A stretch of 64,000 bases of DNA from Terebella lapidaria (Eukaryota > Annelida > Polychaeta > Terebellida > Terebellidae), in NCBI GenBank assembly GCA_949152475.1, contig OX424568.1, forward strand, positions 27,317,667-27,381,666, written 5' to 3'. Below, one piece after another: positions 33,691-43,510 of the stretch. The translations under genes and the position numbers were made by a program. Below the pieces are notes generated by a model. It was not told the origin of the DNA. It ran no database searches and was given only the letters and a program-made list of their open reading frames with translations. Positions within the stretch are counted from its first letter, which is position 1. Every line of letters starts with the position of its first letter.

Positions 33691-33752
33691 GTGCATGATT
33701 CTGTTCAGTGTGTAATAAAAAAATCTCGAACATTTTGTATTATTTTACCTAG

Positions 33753-34299
33753 TGTAATAGCGGTGGTGTTGTAATAACAAACACTTGCTTGATTCGATTC
33801 GAGGGTTTATTCGTGTATAATACAGCCTGCAATGAAATAATGCAGAATGGTTGATAATCGAACAACCACTACACATATAAATGAAATCTAATTCCCCTAA
33901 CCTTCTACGAGTAAAATATGATAATGAATAGCATTAAAATACATTATGAGCATGAGAATGAACTGACCTGATCAAACGTGTGATGATCCAAATAAAGATG
34001 AATGAAGTAATGATCAATGATGTAATGATCGTTGATGGTTTGTAAAATGATGGCGCAGTGCAACATATAAAGTAACGAGGAAAATCGATCAGATGTTTCC
34101 TCTCTGACTTTCAAAGTGCAAGTGAACAAAGTAAAAACTCCCGCCAAAATATCACATAGTCATGTGATCAACAATAAACAAACAGTAACTAAGTAAAAGT
34201 GAGACCAGACACAAACATTCACTCTACAGGTGGCAGCACGCACACACATTCATACACATTCAAAACCACTAGGTGGCAACACCAACACTCACTGTCACA
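33753..34299 (-). repeat. 3' LTR, 547 bp
   Basis: On the minus strand it starts TGTGACAGTG and ends GCTATTACA (TG...CA). An AATAAA poly(A) signal lies at 33806-33811 (minus), about 55 bases before the LTR end, and a TTTATATG box is near 34060. A CTCF-like CCACTAGGTGGCAA is at 34266-34279 on the plus strand. Confidence 0.92.
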
Positions 34300-34310
34300 T
34301 CCTCCCTCAC
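34300..34310 (-). promoter_or_regulatory. Polypurine tract
   Basis: Minus strand GTGAGGGAGGA directly precedes the 3' LTR, the usual place for the plus-strand primer. Confidence 0.8.
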
Positions 34311-34399
34311 CAAATTAAATCTTAATTACATATTCCCATAATAAATGAGAATTAAGATTAACCCTGAAGTAACGATGCCAATATGTTAGTCGCAAAAAC

Positions 34400-37300
34400 C
34401 TATGTGCCCTTAACCATGGAAATAACTTCCAACAACACCGATTCAGGCAAATGTGAGTAGTTAATGGCAACATTTAAAAGAAATTGTGCTTTCTGCATCC
34501 ACTCAGGAGCAGAAGGTGCCGAAGTGTTAGTGTGGTTTAAAATCCATCCATCCGACTGGAACCGTGCTGGTGGCTTACGCTCCCGGACACTACAACGAGG
34601 TTGTGGAATTGGGACAGGACTGTCCTCTGGATCAGACTGCTGATCGACCAGTTGAGGTGAAGCCACACTGCCAACAGGGCTAATATCGACCAGCTGTGGT
34701 GAAGCCACACTGCCGACAGGGCTATCCTGAACTAAAGGAACTGGTGAAAGCTGACCATCTGACAACACAGGATCCTCAATCAATTCGGACTCTGAGTTAG
34801 AAGACTCAAGTCTGGCCTCATCTGCTGGAGCAACCACAGGAAGCAGAACAACAAAATCTTCGTCTGACGATTCAGACTCAGAGGACTCAGATCCTGAACC
34901 GACTAATGGAATAGACTGCCTGGTCTTACGACGGGTAACACGTGGAGTAGCGATGGGTCTTGTCCCGATTTCCACCTTAGAAGAGATGGGAAGCAATAAA
35001 TTCCGATGTAAAACCTTACACTTTCCTCCCCCCTCTGGAGAGACACGGAACACAGGGATCTCAGAATTTGGTTGCCCTTGCACAACATAGACCACATCCT
35101 GCCACTTATCCGCAAGCTTGTGACGACCTTTCAACCCAACATTCCTGATGAGAACCCGATCACCAACGTGCAGCATAACACCACGTTGTTTCTGATCATA
35201 GTGATCCTTCTGTCTACCCGACGCAACCTGCTGATTCTTTGCTGCCAATTCCCAGGAATACCGTAACTGCTCATCCAGATCTTCCACAAACTTGCTGAAA
35301 CTCTGGGTTTCACCATCCGGAGACAAACCGAACTGAAGATTGACAGGGAGCTTAGGGTCACGACCAAACATAAGTTTGTAGGGAGAAAAACCCGAAGATG
35401 GGTGTTTGGTACAATTGTACGAGTGTACGACAGATGGTAGGTAGTCCTTCCAGTTCTTCTTCTTGTCGGACTCCAATGTACCAAGCATTTGCAACAAAGT
35501 CCTGTTGAACCGTTCAACGATACCATTCCCCATGGCATGATATGGAGTAGTCCTGGATTTACTAATGCCCATAAGGTGACGCAACTCCTTGATCACTCGG
35601 GATTCAAAATTCCGTCCTTGATCACTGTGCAACTTTGCAGGAACACCATAATGCACCACGAACTGATCAAACAGAACCCGAGCTGTTGTCTTGGCTGATT
35701 GATTTCTTGTTGGGTACGCTTGAGAAAACTTCGAGAAGTGATCAGTCATGACCAAGATGTTTTCGTACCCCTTGGAAGGTTCTACAGTCAAGAAATCAAT
35801 ACAGACCAACTCCATAGGGTATGAAGAAGTCATAGAAATCAACGGAGGCTTATCACCAGGAACCTTACGACATATACACCGAGTACAGTTCTTGACATAC
35901 TCCTCGACATCCACAAACATACCAGGCCAGTAGAAACGGGATCGGAGCAAATCTGCAGTTCTGTCTCTTCCAATATGAGCCATGTCATCATGCAAAGATC
36001 TCAAAACCATTGATCGACACTGACGTGGGACCACAAGCTGATCCATCCCATGGCCTTCATTCTGAATTGTACGAAACAGAACACCATTCCGAAGATGCAA
36101 CTTGTCCCATTGACGCAATAACAAAACAACATCCTTATCCAGTTGTGTCAAGTCCAAATCAGAAGGTTTTTCACTGGATGTCTCCAGGAACCCAATAACC
36201 TTCCCAAGAACTGGGTCTTCATGCTGGAGCTTCAGAACATCGACTGAATCCATAACCGGGATTTCACCGAGAACCTCAACCACCGAACCACTGACACACA
36301 AGGAGTGAACATAGGCCTCCTGATCCTTCAACTGCATGACAGCCCGAACAACCTCTTCTGAATCCTCCTGCCTCGGCAGCCTGGACAACATATCTGCATC
36401 ACAATTGTGAGCTCCTGGCTTGTACGACACAGAGAAATCAAAAGCAGACAACGCAGCCAACCACCGGTGACCTGTCGCATCCAACTTGGCTGAAGAAAGG
36501 ACATACGTAAGAGGATTGTTGTCAGTCCAAACTTTGAAGGTATGACCATACAAGTAGTCATAAAACTTGTCTGTTACTGCCCATTTCAGAGCAAGAAACT
36601 CCAACTTGTGTATAGGATATCTGGACTCAGAAGGTGTCAAACCTCTACTTGCATAGGCGATAACTCGACGCTGACCACTCTGGGACTGATACAAAACAGC
36701 ACCCAAACCAGACATGCTGGCATCCACGTGGAGTTCAAAAGGAAGGGAATAATCTGCATACGCCAAAATTGGAGCAGAAGTACAAAGTTGGATCAGCTGT
36801 TCGAATGCGGATTGCTGCGAATCACCCCAAACAAATGGAACAGGACTCACAACCTTACGTCGATGTTTCTTTGTCACATCATGGCCTTTCAGAAGATCAG
36901 TCAAAGGTTTGGCCACTTTGGACAGGTTGGGAATAAACCTCCTCTGGAAACCAATGAATCCGAGAAACCGTTGTAGCTCCTCAATGTCCTTTGGGGGTTT
37001 CATGTTCCTGACGGCCGAAACCTTGTCTGGATCAACCTCGATTCCAGCGGCGGACACGACATGACCAAGATATTTGACCTTCTTCCGCAAAAACTGACAT
37101 TTTTTGGGATTCAATTTCAAACCGAACTCCCAAAGCCGATCGAAAACTTTACCGAGCCTGACAAGATGATCCTCGTATGATGATGAGTAGACAATAATGT
37201 CGTCTAAATACATTAGGCAATTGTCCACATCATGCATGCAGAGATGCATGAGCCTCTGGAAACTAGCTGGAGAGTTACACAAACCGAAAGGCATCACATT

Positions 37301-37800
37301 AAACTCAAAAAATCCCAAGGGACCTGCAGTAAATGCCGTTTTCTCCTTGTGACCTTCCTCAACCTCCAGTTGCCAGTACCCAGCCTTGAGATCTAATGAT
37401 GTAAACAAACTAGCCCCTTGAAGAGTATCCAGGGTCTCATCAATACGTGGCAATGAATATGCATCACGCTTGGTAACCCGATTCAAAGCCCGATAGTCAA
37501 CACACATACGAAGCGAACCATCCTTTTTCCTGACTAATACCATCGGAGCTGAATACGGACTCCGATGGACGAATCACACCTGTATCCAACATCTTATCCA
37601 ATTGAGCCTTCGTTCCTTCACCATGGCAGGCGGAATTCTGCGATGGGGTAGCTTAATTGGAGTATCATCCAAAAGATTGATAGAGTGCTTGACCGCATCT
37701 GTGTGACCAATATCGAAATCACTCTGGGAAAATATTGACTTCCAGTCAATCAAGAACTGTTTGAGTGAACCAATCTGTTCCGGAGAACCACAACAACCAG
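34400..37800 (-). CDS. pol: pol region: reverse transcriptase, RNase H, integrase
   Basis: The long open stretch begins inside the RT domain and contains, in order, RT with MPFGLCNSPASF and YLDD, RNase H starting FELHVDASMSGLGAVLYQ, an integrase zinc-binding HHCC domain (HDDMAH, then CTRC), and the integrase core with the Asp, Asp and Glu of the D-D-E triad (CIDF, SDQG, NGIVERFN). The N-terminal edge of the RT (DDTPIKLPHRRIPPAM) lies just upstream. The C-terminal tail is Ser/Asp/Glu-rich (SESSDEDF) and carries a 13-residue repeat, SPVGSVASPQLVD, twice. No chromodomain is seen. RT, RNase H and integrase would make and insert the cDNA. Treated as a fossil; the frame structure is not described further. 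Confidence 0.92.
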
Positions 37801-38139
37801 ACAAATCAGGAAATCCTTGTCCAGAGAACCACCGAGGGCACTACTGGGAACCAAATCGTCTGAATTGGTAAGTTCCACCCTATTCAAAGAACAAAGAACA
37901 GATTTCGCAGGAATTGTGACTGTCTTCAAACTGAAATTCTGGACCTGAACTTGGATTCTAGCTGTAGAATGCTGACCTGTATTCGGCATTTCCAACAATG
38001 AAGGCGTGACACGAACCCCACCTGGTAGCATTGCAAGTGCAGGCTCTCCGACTGCTTCAGCGACTACCAAACCACCATGATCACCAACCCATGGCCGTGT
38101 AATACCCTTCACCAGAACAGATGAATTAGGGGGTATCAC

Positions 38140-38620
38140 CTCGGGTCGTGTTGTCCGGACCACCTTACCACAACCTTCACTGAGACTATTACAAATGAGC
38201 GGCTTGAGAACATTTGTACCGACCAATACAGGAACATCCAAGTTGTACGATGTCGAGGGCACAACCAGAGCCAAAACTGTTTCCTCCTGTTCAACTCCAT
38301 CCAACGCAGGATAGACTAGATTCAACTCAACAAATCCAAGATACCTAAGTCGATGGCCAGTTGATCCAAAGATATCCAATCGAGAAGTAACTGGTTGCAG
38401 AGGAACATCACGCAGATGCGTTCTGAAGAAATCCTCACTGATGTTTGTAATCTGTGAACCAGTATCCAACAAGGCCTTGCAAGGAACACCATTTACCTTG
38501 ACACTCACCTCGCACCCTTTACCAACCAAAGTTGAACCAGCAAAAACATCACCATTAGGAGCAGTGGGACCAAGACCGTCAACGTCTAACTTCGGTCCCC
38601 TGAAGTTGACGCTGCTGCGT
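38140..38620 (-). CDS. Aspartic protease region
   Basis: CKALLDTGSQITNIS carries the D-T-G motif of retroelement aspartic proteases near 38466, preceded by a GCEVSVKVNGVP strand. It lies between gag and pol, as in Ty3-type elements, and would cut the polyprotein inside the particle. The open stretch extends at both sides. Confidence 0.85.
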
Positions 38621-39565
38621 TTCCCGACTTTGACGGACAATCCCGAGCAACATGACCGGGCTGAGAACACCGAAAACAGACAGGAACACGACCTTTCGAG
38701 AAACCTGAACGTCGGTTCTCGATCTTGCTGATCCTTGACTCCATCTTCTCTTGGAAAGCAAAGTGTCAAACTTGTCGTTAATCGTGGGGGAATCAGATGC
38801 AACAGCAGCAGTCTGCTGACAACTTCCTTTTGATGACCGCCTTGAGAAATCAAACTCAATAGCCCGAGCTTCCAACAAAAGATTGTTGTATGACATACCA
38901 TTATCAAAATGGTGTCTGAGGGCTTCCTGCAGCTTGGAATCGGAAATACCACTCCAAAACCTGGAACGAAGACGTGTAGGAGCAGTGTCCTCAGAGATCG
39001 CACCACGTTGTCTGGCTTTGTCAAGCAGTTCCTCCAACCGACATCCCCAAGAAGCTATTGACTCAGAAGGCTTCTGTGAAGAACTGTAGAATTGCTCAAG
39101 CAACTGCTCTGGACTGAACACAATCCCAAAGACGACATCAAACTTGACAAGCAGGTCGTGAACAGAAACTTTCTCCCCAAGGTGAAGTAACACTTCAGAA
39201 GCAGTACCCTTCAGAGATCTGCGAACGACATTCAGAATTGTAGACTCGCTGTATTCCCCCATCAAACACTTGACACTATACCTCCAATGAGCATAGGAGA
39301 CATCACCTTTGGAGTTATCACCCGAGAAGCTGGGCAACTTGGGAGAATTCAAAGGAACCTGTGACGGAGCAGCTGGAACAGAACTAGGAGTCTCACTCTT
39401 GACCTGGGAAACACCACTACCACCTTCCCCTCTCAGCTTGAGAGTATCTGCGTACTGGACCTCCATCCATTTCTCCAACTCAGAAGCAGAATACTCCGGC
39501 TTGGCACCCAAAGCATAGAAAGCAGCACCAAGTTTGGCCAAGTCTTCCTCTGATGGATCCGACAT
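38579..39565 (-). CDS. gag: gag region
   Basis: The open stretch starts with MSDPSEEDLAKLGAAFYALG. A Ser/Pro-rich part (residues about 50-75) leads to PKLPSFSGDN, the usual start of the retrotransposon gag capsid domain, and SIASWGCRLEELLDKAR, typical of its second half. The capsid resembles the PNMA/Ty3 class. The start is the first ATG after a leader of about 1.3 kb. Capsid protein would package the element RNA in cytoplasmic particles. Confidence 0.85.
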   Translation of the reverse strand: MSDPSEEDLAKLGAAFYALGAKPEYSASELEKWMEVQYADTLKLRGEGGSGVSQVKSETPSSVPAAPSQVPLNSPKLPSFSGDNSKGDVSYAHWRYSVKCLMGEYSESTILNVVRRSLKGTASEVLLHLGEKVSVHDLLVKFDVVFGIVFSPEQLLEQFYSSSQKPSESIASWGCRLEELLDKARQRGAISEDTAPTRLRSRFWSGISDSKLQEALRHHFDNGMSYNNLLLEARAIEFDFSRRSSKGSCQQTAAVASDSPTINDKFDTLLSKRRWSQGSARSRTDVQVSRKVVFLSVFGVLSPVMLLGIVRQSRETQQRQLQGTEVRR

Positions 39566-40901
39566 GATGGATTACAATTAAGTCCACCCCGGTAAATAAA
39601 CAAACCAGGTGTAAAGTGTTAAACTCGATATCAGTACACTACAAGTGTTGAATGCAAAAGGTGGCAATCATGCAATGGTAAACAGCAAACACTGTTGTAT
39701 ATATTCACACGTTATTTATGTTAAGTACACTTATACATTCACACACCACACAACAAGCACACCTCAGTTACACAACACACTGTCAATCAATACACACAAC
39801 AATTTACTCAGTCAACAGACACAAAGTCCAAAAAGACCAAAGTTCTGACCTTGAATATTTGACTTGTGAAAAACCTTGAAGTCCAAATTTCGCAAAGGCG
39901 AAAATCAAAACCGACTCCAAAAAACAACAAAGTTGAAATCAAGTACCAATCCAAGAAAACAATTAGTATGATTAAAAAAAATAACAATGACAAGTCAGAA
40001 ATGATAACGAGTCAATGACAATGATTGATATGAAATGAATGAAGTGATATGATATGACTGAATACTGAGTGATGAATACCTATGTCCTATCCACACGACT
40101 ATAACAGGCTCACACACACACTGTGTGTACAATGACCAATCACAAATATACACCCACAATTGAATATGTTTAAATATATTACCACAAGTCACCCAACAAT
40201 TGAATGACAAATAATGTTCAACAAAGTATGTGTATATCAAATGCAATTGTATACACACGTAAATATTGTGAAATACTAGACAATGATAAATATAACTTGT
40301 TACAAGTAAACGAAACTGACACTGTCAAAATTACAGTGGCAATTTACACAAGTGATTTCAAAAACTAATTCCCAAATTCCTGTATACACTGTGAATAACT
40401 GGACAGTTACAAACTGTAAATTGAATTGGCAGATATACTGCGATCAACTTTGACTAAATATATGACAGTGTCAATACACAGAGATAATTAACTACACGTT
40501 GAAATGCACTCACAGTATTGTCAAAGTTGACACATTTTGACGTTTGTGACTTTGATCTTCGTGCACATATTCGCGTGGTGGCGCCACCGTAGACGATGGA
40601 AAAGCACTGTAGTTCACCGAGGATGGAGATGAACGACGTGAAGCATAGCGACGCGCGCAGAATGGATCAGGGCAACAATCACGAGGCGATGAACAACAGG
40701 CGTGATGACTGGAACAAGAGCTCTCACCCACGGCGATCTGTGTAGCAGAACGGCGAATTGCGGCTGCTCCTAGGCCTACCCCAACGACCACACTGTCGGC
40801 GTCGACACGGCTGTGGCTTTCAGAGCCTATACTGGGTAGCGACTATCACGCTGGCCTCAGGGCTGCCTCAACACGCTGATCAGGCTTACAGCTACACGAC
40901 T
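39566..40901 (-). other. Leader between primer site and gag
   Basis: About 1.3 kb without a convincing coding region. The part near 39970-40330 is AT-rich with ATGA-type repeats. A 93-codon ORF at 40510-40791 is rich in Ser, Cys and Arg and is not credited. Long leaders in this family can carry packaging signals, but none was identified here. Confidence 0.6.
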
Positions 40902-40915
40902 CACATTGGGCGCCA
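40902..40915 (-). promoter_or_regulatory. Primer binding site for tRNA-Lys
   Basis: Minus strand TGGCGCCCAATGTG starts two bases (AC) after an LTR end and is complementary to the 3' end of tRNA-Lys(CUU) with CCA. The match is 14 bases, then it stops. Confidence 0.85.
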
Positions 40916-40917
40916 GT

Positions 40918-41138
40918 TGTAATAGCGGTGGTGTTGTAATAACAAACACTTGCTTGATTCGATTCGAGGGTTTATTCGTGTATAATACAGCCTGCAATGA
41001 AATAATGCAGAATGGTTGATAATCGAACAACCACTACACATATAAATGAAATCTAATTCCCCTAACCTTCTACGAGTAAAATATGATAATGAATAGCATT
41101 AAAAAACATTATGAGCATGAGAATGAACTGACCTGATC
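40918..41138 (-). repeat. Extra LTR fragment, 221 bp (LTR positions 327-547)
   Basis: Matches the last 221 bases of the LTR with about one difference by eye, keeps the CA end and the AC spacer before the primer site, and starts at GATC. It contains the poly(A) signal and so probably the R-U5 part. Confidence 0.92.
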
Positions 41139-41182
41139 TCTTAATCCCAGGGTCGTGGGTTCGAGCCCCACATTGGGCGCCA
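41139..41182 (+). other. 44-nt segment matching the 3' part of tRNA-Lys(CUU), between LTRs
   Basis: Plus strand starts TCTTAATCCCAGGG and continues through GTGGGTTCGAGCCCCAC, a canonical T arm (GTGGG stem, TTCGAGC loop), into ATTGGGCGCCA, the acceptor end with CCA. It corresponds to tRNA-Lys(CUU) from U33 to the 3' CCA, with CTT as the anticodon. A tRNA gene would not encode CCA and would have the 5' half, which is missing. The segment joins the LTR fragment at GATC/TCTT, with one shared base. It is a copy of the primer, not a gene. One position (ACATTGGG against ACGTTGGG) differs from the vertebrate form that I remember. Confidence 0.85.
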
Positions 41183-41184
41183 GT

Positions 41185-41731
41185 TGTAATAGCGGTGGTG
41201 TTGTAATAACAAACACTTGCTTGATTCGATTCGAGGGTTTATTCGTGTATAATACAGCCTGCAATGAAATAATGCAGAATGGTTGATAATCGAACAACCA
41301 CTACACATATAAATGAAATCTAATTCCCCTAACCTTCTACGAGTAAAATATGATAATGAATAGCATTAAAATACATTATGAGCATGAGAATGAACTGACC
41401 TGATCAAACGTGTGATGATCCAAATAAAGATGAATGAAGTAATGATCAATGATGTAATGATCGTTGATGGTTTGTAAAATGATGGCGCAGTGCAACATAT
41501 AAAGTAACGAGGAAAATCGATCACATGTTTCCTCTCTGACTTTCAAAGTGCAAGTGAACAAAGTAAAAACTCCCGCCAAAATATCACATAGTCATGTGAT
41601 CAACAATAAACAAACAGTAACTAAGTAAAAGTGAGACCAGACACAAACATTCACTCTACAGGTGGCAGCACGCACACACATTCATACACATTCAAAACCA
41701 CTAGGTGGCAACACCAACACTCACTGTCACA
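41185..41731 (-). repeat. 5' LTR, 547 bp
   Basis: Same ends and length as the 3' LTR, with about one difference (near 41523). It carries the same CTCF-like site at 41698-41711 on the plus strand. Followed on the plus strand by the CTAG target duplication. Confidence 0.92.
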
Positions 41732-41735
41732 CTAG

Positions 41736-43015: not shown

Positions 43016-43019
43016 GGAA

Positions 43020-43510
43020 TTATAGACTACACAGCTCAGGAATCAATTGTGCACATATAGGAAATGACGTAGGCCGAATATTCTGATGACCTTGAATTAG
43101 ACCTTTGATCTCAGTTTCAAGGTCAGAGCACAAAATGGCTAATATCTCACTTATTATCGACTTTACAGCTTGAGATTAAATTGTGGATGAATAGGAAATG
43201 ATGTATGCCGAATGTTTTGATGACCTTGAAATTGAGCTTTGACCTAACTTTCAAGGTCACAGGACGAAATGTTCAATATGTCATTTATTATCGACTTTAC
43301 AGCATACGAATCCATTGTGGACTCGTAGGAAATGATATATGATGAATATGTTTCCATGAGCTTGAGCTTTGATCTTATCTTCAAGGTCTCAGTACAAAAT
43401 GGTTAAATTATCGCTTGTTTTCGACTCAAGACCTTAGGAATCAATTGTACACATATAGGAAATGATATATGCTGAGTATTTTCATGACCTTGGACTTTGA
43501 CCTTATTGTC
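43020..43510 (+). repeat. Minisatellite array, unit about 140 bp, about four units
   Basis: Each unit carries GGAAATGA(C/T)(A/G)TA, ATGACCTTGA, TTTGACCT, TTTCAAGGTCA and AAAATGG(C/T)TAA in this order, then TTATTATCGACTTTACAGC. The units are clearly diverged. The same array lies inverted at 51300-51830. Confidence 0.8.

Follow-up and report, generated by a model that had tools for sequence, protein, structure and literature searches.

An LTR retrotransposon insertion in the window (the whole 64-kb stretch of DNA analysed, on contig C15) carries, between its 5' LTR and a fragment of a second LTR copy, a copy of the tRNA-Lys(CUU) primer that runs from the CCA end into the anticodon loop; comparable read-through copies are found at no fewer than 35 independent places in the genome. 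We propose that a plus-strand strong-stop DNA extended into the tRNA, a dead end of the Ty1/Ty3 type, sometimes jumps to another template and is then integrated, and we consider this account probable. The parts of the window insertion are as follows.

33753-41731, minus strand: LTR retrotransposon insertion with LTRs, gag and pol
41732-41735, no strand: CTAG, target site duplication flanking the 5' LTR
41185-41731, minus strand: 5' LTR, 547 bp, TG...CA
41183-41184, minus strand: spacer AC between the 5' LTR and the tRNA copy
41139-41182, minus strand: antisense copy of tRNA-Lys(CUU), CCA76 to U33, 44 nt, identical to the species' tRNA-Lys genes plus CCA
40918-41138, minus strand: LTR fragment of a second copy, LTR bases 327-547, 221 bp
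40916-40917, minus strand: spacer AC between the LTR fragment and the primer site
40902-40915, minus strand: ordinary primer-binding site with a 14-nt match to tRNA-Lys(CUU); the family leader AGTCGTG comes next
37753-39565, minus strand: PNMA-like gag in two overlapping ORFs (PNMA, 2.5e-10)
36047-37543, minus strand: RT and RNase H part of pol (Pfam: RVT_1, 4.7e-37; RT_RNaseH_2, 3.7e-31; RT_RNaseH, 1e-29)
34400-36046, minus strand: integrase part of pol (Pfam: Integrase_H2C2, 7.2e-19; rve, 9.5e-13)
34300-34311, minus strand: purine-rich tract GGTGAGGGAGGA adjoining the 3' LTR, a candidate PPT
33753-34299, minus strand: 3' LTR of the same insertion
33749-33752, no strand: CTAG, target site duplication flanking the 3' LTR

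Within pol, RT and RNase H precede the integrase, which is the order of Ty3 and not of Ty1, and on its domains and their order the element is a Ty3-like LTR retrotransposon; additionally, the gag region contains a weak match to an aspartyl protease (gag-asp_proteas, 1.4e-4) that lies under the Pfam cut-off. Because the 5' and 3' LTRs differ at only one of 547 positions and CTAG stands on both flanks, the insertion looks like a recent one made by integrase. The arrangement described in the earlier note, namely a 547-bp LTR, AC, the tRNA segment, the last 221 bases of an LTR, AC and the primer site, was recovered in full on the minus strand. The same note had the two parts joined at GATC; the homology at the junction is in fact only one base, G41138, which may be read either as the complement of C32 of the tRNA or as LTR base 327, and the tRNA copy is hence 44-45 nt long. 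A single private difference marks the LTR fragment, A to T at LTR position 360; this is absent from all of the other LTR copies examined, and is therefore uninformative as to which RNA served as template. The candidate signals in the window LTR (TATA at 231, among other TATA sites; CAGGT at 330; TCAGT at 334; AATAAA at 489) yield no unique placement of the R/U5 boundaries. The LTR also contains a splice-donor-like sequence, CAGGTCAGT (LTR bases 330-338), and an acceptor-like one, TTTCATTGCAGG (about 461-472): the window fragment starts 6 bases ahead of the donor-like cut, and a further LTR fragment, at C6:632049, starts at about base 472, beside the acceptor-like site. Just past the element, at 43019-43482, there are three to four tandem copies of a repeat of 130-134 bp. 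Elsewhere in the assembly, a mitochondrial COX1 uses TGA for Trp and has AGA where serine would usually stand, to judge by eye, in keeping with an animal code of the invertebrate type.

The inserted segment is a copy of mature tRNA-Lys(CUU). The run of 45 nt has zero mismatches to the species' tRNA-Lys, and in the tRNA-Lys(CUU) genes examined the sequence agrees with that of the copies, A66 included, except that TAA stands where the copies have TGG; since the genes lack CCA and the copies possess it, the template was the mature tRNA. The segment had been read in the earlier note as the complement of tRNA-Lys(CUU) from U33 through CCA, and as naming the primer directly; the comparison with the species' own genes upholds both statements. 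ARAGORN called four tRNA-Lys(ctt) genes in a fetched stretch of the C4 array, which is a long tandem array of tRNA-Lys(CUU) genes at C4:27.54-27.59 Mb; a second long tandem array, at C1:92.587-92.700 Mb with a unit of about 1.1 kb, probably consists of tRNA-Pro genes, judged by look. With tRNA-Lys genes so abundant, one might suppose that a genomic tRNA gene, or a tRNA-derived SINE, had been captured beside an LTR. However, the copies carry TGG and begin at CCA on the LTR edge (TTG in L091 and L092), the genes have TAA, the joint is recurrent, and ARAGORN found no tRNA gene in the 64-kb window, so that a nearby gene was rejected as the source; the probability of such a capture is vanishingly small.

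Recurrence was assessed by a pattern search of the 761.6-Mb genome for CCA-anchored tRNA-Lys sequence extending past A58; because this pattern extends as far as position 52, strands with endpoints of 52-59 are under-sampled. It gave 221 matches, gene array included, and the reversed-pattern control gave 0. Among the 100 matches listed of these 221, 64 belong to the gene array (TAACGCC) and the other 36 were all read, giving at least 36 read-through loci, each with a repeat end directly before the tRNA copy. They represent 35 independent events, as L092 shares one joint with L091 and was dropped from the counts as its duplicate. The copies begin at the LTR edge with TGG, the complement of CCA, with the exception of this pair, which has TTG instead. 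A control search with tRNA-Lys(UUU) returned 0 matches, not even a gene, and is uninformative since the pattern followed mammalian tRNA. That with tRNA-Pro returned 106 matches, of which 100 were listed: nearly all of these belong to one gene-like array, and none begins with TGG; it is a weak control, no Pro-primed family being known in this genome.

Seven of the 36 loci belong to the window family (family 1), 26 to family 2, two to family 3 (L034 and L055, which have in common an upstream repeat of several hundred bases with a TG start and a CA end) and one to family 4 (L058 alone, distinguished by look only on a 49-base, 78% match to the family-1 LTR). In family 1, read-through is seen in at least 7 of the 19 insertions with an LTR-primer-site junction (there are 20 junctions, the window being counted once, and some of the 12 others are partial LTRs), and in family 2 in at least 24 of 113 junctions, the L091/L092 pair included. 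What had been presented as a read-through fossil is thus real, but it is no one-off: the search for further LTR-tRNA junctions that the earlier note called for reveals a genome-wide class in several tRNA-Lys-primed LTR families. Family 2 has an LTR of 171 bp with a tRNA-like sequence (its boxes judged by eye) and a noncoding inside of 62 bp with a primer site and a purine tract, features that fit a TRIM of the Helenus type; it is present at C3:20513340-20513960 (L096) and at about 100 other junctions, with several LTR-inside-LTR-inside tandems.

The breadth of this class also bears on the idea that all copies received a long tRNA-like primer site from a common ancestor, or that the window was misassembled. 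L091 and L092, with their identical joint, are what inheritance would produce. The other continuations and endpoints differ, each of the seven family-1 read-through insertions is joined to different DNA, and the window structure occurs once among the 20 family-1 junctions. The differing continuations rule out an ancestral long site; misassembly is very unlikely given the many other loci with the same LTR-CCA-tRNA joint and different continuations, and together we accord these two explanations a negligible probability.

That the primer-site bases of the read-through copies derive from the tRNA, rather than from element RNA, follows from two contrasts. In the tandem insertion L057, both internal primer sites depart from the tRNA at nt 4, 13, 16 and 17, whereas the read-through site agrees with it at all four positions and has its mismatch at nt 10. 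Moreover, among 100 listed sites, T13, as in the tRNA, is present in 24 of 24 read-through sites (one of them from family 3, and one, C7:29361910, known only as a 32-base match) versus 28 of 63 ordinary sites (Fisher, 2.8e-7, a value that ignores relatedness and LTR subfamilies). Two loci carry a stutter: L055 copies the tRNA to position 17 and then recopies 31 to 13, and at L090 the first copy stops at 52 and a second one covers 66 to 54, patterns to be expected from slippage of the reverse transcriptase on the tRNA template.

The ordinary primer sites, classed among 100 listed of 119 junctions (two being classed as 'other'), look different. The window element's own site had been described as complementary to tRNA-Lys, and this applies to 14 nt (TGGCGCCCAATGTG), which are the same in the tRNA segment; beyond these it reads AGTC, as against GGGC in the tRNA copy. 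Among ordinary family-1 sites, AGTC is found in 12 of 13 and AGGC in one, and GGGC followed by the leader in none; 34 of the 63 ordinary sites retain G13, where the tRNA has T, and 63 of the 100 listed sites, nearly all from family 2, have a non-tRNA A at nt 17. Ordinary copies thus mostly lack inherited tRNA bases in the primer site, which is at odds with the rule, assumed in the earlier note, of a stop after about 18 nt followed by transfer. They argue likewise against a purely retrovirus-like transfer, in which strong-stop DNA normally ends at m1A58 and is transferred by way of the primer site, the fossils record rare loss or bypass of m1A58, and there is no dead end of the Ty type. Such a scheme is in keeping with the behaviour of the HIV-1 enzyme, which copies unmodified tRNA to its 5' end with a minor stop at ms2t6A37 (PMC13191261), and with 11 of the 100 listed sites, which resemble short tRNA-copied ends (to about 56-60) transferred near the correct place; these 11 make it look as though a retrovirus-like route also operates. 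The window acceptor, however, requires minus-strand DNA that continues past the primer site into an LTR, as in the Ty model, and as the sole explanation we judge the retrovirus-like one rather unlikely. One extra G precedes the leader in 6 of the 100 listed primer sites (among them, in family 2, C2:2628080, C6:12331060 and C12:28191501), as if the tRNA-copied end had slipped by one base during transfer.

The endpoints of the 35 independent events range from tRNA position 55 to 1, with one reaching G1, so that 22 to 76 nt of tRNA were copied; as chance matches lengthen them, these are upper bounds. The contention that copying had passed A58 and entered the anticodon loop is strongly supported. 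The alternative that would have refuted it, a neighbouring tRNA gene or SINE unconnected with CCA, is contradicted by the position of CCA directly against the LTR spacer and by the recurrence of the joint with many different endpoints. The endpoints are unevenly spread: of the 33 below 52, 14 lie at 32-38 and 11 at 21-26, where 4.5 and 3.9, respectively, are expected if they were uniform over 1-51, and only three lie at 1-20 as opposed to 12.9 expected. The excess at 32-38 is what might be anticipated if a tRNA severed in the anticodon loop had supplied only its 3' half as primer, and the strand ran off the end of that half. Against this, 14 of the 35 strands pass beyond the loop, to 26 or lower and in one case to G1, and the most frequent single endpoint is 32, which, to our knowledge, is not a typical anticodon-loop cut site; we find priming by tRNA halves improbable.

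A58 is read as T in 34 of the 35 events, the sole exception being L090, which, apart from T58 sites, was also the only hit in a search for a non-T base at 58 with at most one mismatch; across all 35 events, 29 of 1637 tRNA positions differ. As m1A is described as usually causing both arrest and misincorporation by reverse transcriptases, with the right base sometimes inserted (PMC4787781), the simplest reading is that the copied primers would mostly have lacked m1A58, the alternative being accurate reverse transcription at m1A58. The peaks at 32 and 21-26 differ from the known HIV-1 stops, which would give endpoints of 59 and 38.

Beyond the tRNA copies, five family-1 loci (the window, those on C15, C6 and C1, and one on C2) continue, directly or past short fillers, into family sequence in sense orientation. 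In the coordinates of the window element, the acceptors are LTR 327 at the window joint, 2388 at C1:34634956 and, after a short filler, 6073 at C2:27759213. C15:7797666 has a stretch, TGTAACTC, then a 16-base piece inverted from 7259-7244 and then pol from 4447; C6:632049 enters base 472 of a diverged LTR, followed by 3675 in sense, 2602-2194 inverted and 4957 in sense, and both of these joints thus have inverted pieces beside sense ones. C2:15657044 begins with an inverted piece (2128 to about 2072) and goes on at 2032, and at C8:38619403 no acceptor was recognised. In family 2, L051 provides a second case of an LTR, a tRNA copy and an LTR fragment, with a 15-base filler; L036 (C4:42365781) closes, on its far side, with an LTR start in inverted orientation and therefore has two U3 ends; L031 (C2:7219057) passes from the LTR and tRNA into an inverted LTR start, also with two U3 ends; and L045 continues to the purine-tract side. 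In most family-2 loci the sequence that follows the copy could not be assigned. At L042 (C9:25110856), L050 (C16:917083) and L055 (C5:32577653), stretches beyond the copy are 65-75% alike to window pol, suggesting possible jumps between different element families.

An exact 4-bp target duplication, the mark of integration of a finished molecule, flanks 6 of the 11 insertions with both ends seen, namely the window (CTAG), C1:34634956 (CATA), C2:27759213 (TTTA), L036 (CACA), L045 (AAAA) and L051 (TGTA), of which CACA and AAAA sit in simple sequence. It is absent from the remaining five (C15:7797666, C6:632049, L031, L044 and L053). For family 2 the count is three of six, read-through copies only. 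The LTR-end matches at L035 (where the second LTR is truncated), L056, L057, L091 and L092 did not enter this count, being either spurious or of no use for it, and inspection by eye of about eleven family-2 loci without a second LTR revealed no duplication directly after the tRNA end.

How the strands acquired their continuations is less clear-cut. Host end joining could have linked tRNA-ended strong-stop DNA to broken cDNA or host DNA, with no switching by the reverse transcriptase: the three family-1 joints without filler (the window, C6 and C1) share just 1, 2 and 1 bases, respectively, and the others have short fillers; many family-2 continuations are without assignment and may represent joins to host DNA; and C6:632049 has pol attached to an LTR end, an arrangement known from autointegration. 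Set against this are the family-1 continuations, most of which are sense copies of the element's own minus strand, the recopying of part of the tRNA at L055 and L090, and the joint at C15:7797666, with its 16-base reverse-orientation copy from a distant site; the last two suit template switching. Polymerase-theta repair is also able to make templated fillers. On the strength of the sense-orientation acceptors, the fillers and the slips, we favour switching by the reverse transcriptase; end joining is a serious contender that we nonetheless place below an even chance, and the two could both be mixed.

The route that we prefer, tRNA extension followed by a jump to another template, would proceed as follows, the tRNA segment being a product of the element's own reverse transcriptase. 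The plus strand would begin at the purine tract, copy the LTR off the minus strand and run on into the tRNA primer still attached to the latter; in the absence of a stop near A58, as would apply if the primer often lacked m1A58, copying would reach the anticodon loop. In the norm of the Ty1/Ty3 type, this first, tRNA-extended strand would be discarded, and productive transfer, onto the R-U5 complement at the minus-strand 3' terminus, would fall to a later strand ending at U5. At the window, the 3' end of the dead-end strand, with about one base of pairing, would have been joined to, or extended on, minus DNA carrying the leader, the primer site and LTR 327-547, and the molecule would then have been completed and integrated with its 4-bp target duplication. 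Two observations lead us to interpret the window joint as the rescue of a dead-end strand at the end of a minus strand: the ordinary sites are mostly not rewritten by the tRNA, and the acceptor minus strand, past leader and primer site, returns to the LTR. The same kind of escape would have occurred dozens of times in the genome, with other endpoints and acceptors.

A plus-strand read-through known mainly from the laboratory is here frozen, dozens of times, in the insertions of an animal genome. From this record one can map endpoints and acceptor sites of retrotransposition as it happens in a living animal, and measure how often modified bases are misread. It names the primer directly, accounts for one origin of partial LTR tandems and of elements with internal deletions, and makes testable both the state of m1A58 on primer tRNAs in particles and the use of a yeast-type dead-end and R-U5 route by Ty3-like elements in animals. 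More tentatively, and with rather less than even confidence, we suggest that tRNA-Lys(CUU) primers are commonly unmethylated at A58 in the Ty3-like particles of this animal and that dead-end strands are routinely rescued by template switching, so as to make up between a fifth and a third of the insertions in some families. If so, the genome would be a readable map of primer modification and of Ty-type transfer, and routine rescue a regular source of deleted, chimeric and LTR-tandem elements.

In the open-licence literature, judged mainly by titles and abstracts, we found no report of integrated LTR-tRNA read-through copies; within that compass the biochemistry is known, and the genomic record, its abundance and the endpoint pattern appear new. 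The description of the animal Helenus TRIMs (Kojima 2024, PMC10886601), which are reported to make 4-bp target duplications, agrees with family 2 in the short LTR, the tRNA-like sequence, the primer site and the purine tract; tRNA read-through goes unmentioned in the portion of that description available to us.

Of the systems in which plus strands enter the primer, HIV-1 offers a close enzymatic parallel. As reported in PMC13191261, on native tRNA-Lys3 its reverse transcriptase has its main stop at m1A58 and a weak one at ms2t6A37, over-extension on the tRNA is seen in TRMT6-mutant cells, and tRNA-Lys3 without m1A58 is read past A58 to the anticodon region or the 5' end, much as here; however, those products are cDNAs made in vitro or in cells, of which only the shorter are usable for transfer, whereas ours are integrated in an animal genome.

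Elements of the copia type use half-tRNA priming, which employs the anticodon region of the primer tRNA. That region is involved here too, but priming is at the 3' CCA end and the anticodon region is only template.

The proposed pathway is close to the recycling model for Ty1 and Ty3 (Lauermann and Boeke, as presented in PMC5371799), in which the initial plus strand, extended into the tRNA, is a dead end; once the tRNA has been removed, a second strand ending at U5 transfers via R-U5 at the minus-strand 3' terminus. In line with that model, ordinary progeny primer sites here are mostly without tRNA bases; in contrast to it, the yeast strands are stated to stop after 12 nt of tRNA (PMC5371799), where ours continue for 22 to 76 nt and seem to have been rescued from the dead end into integrated insertions.
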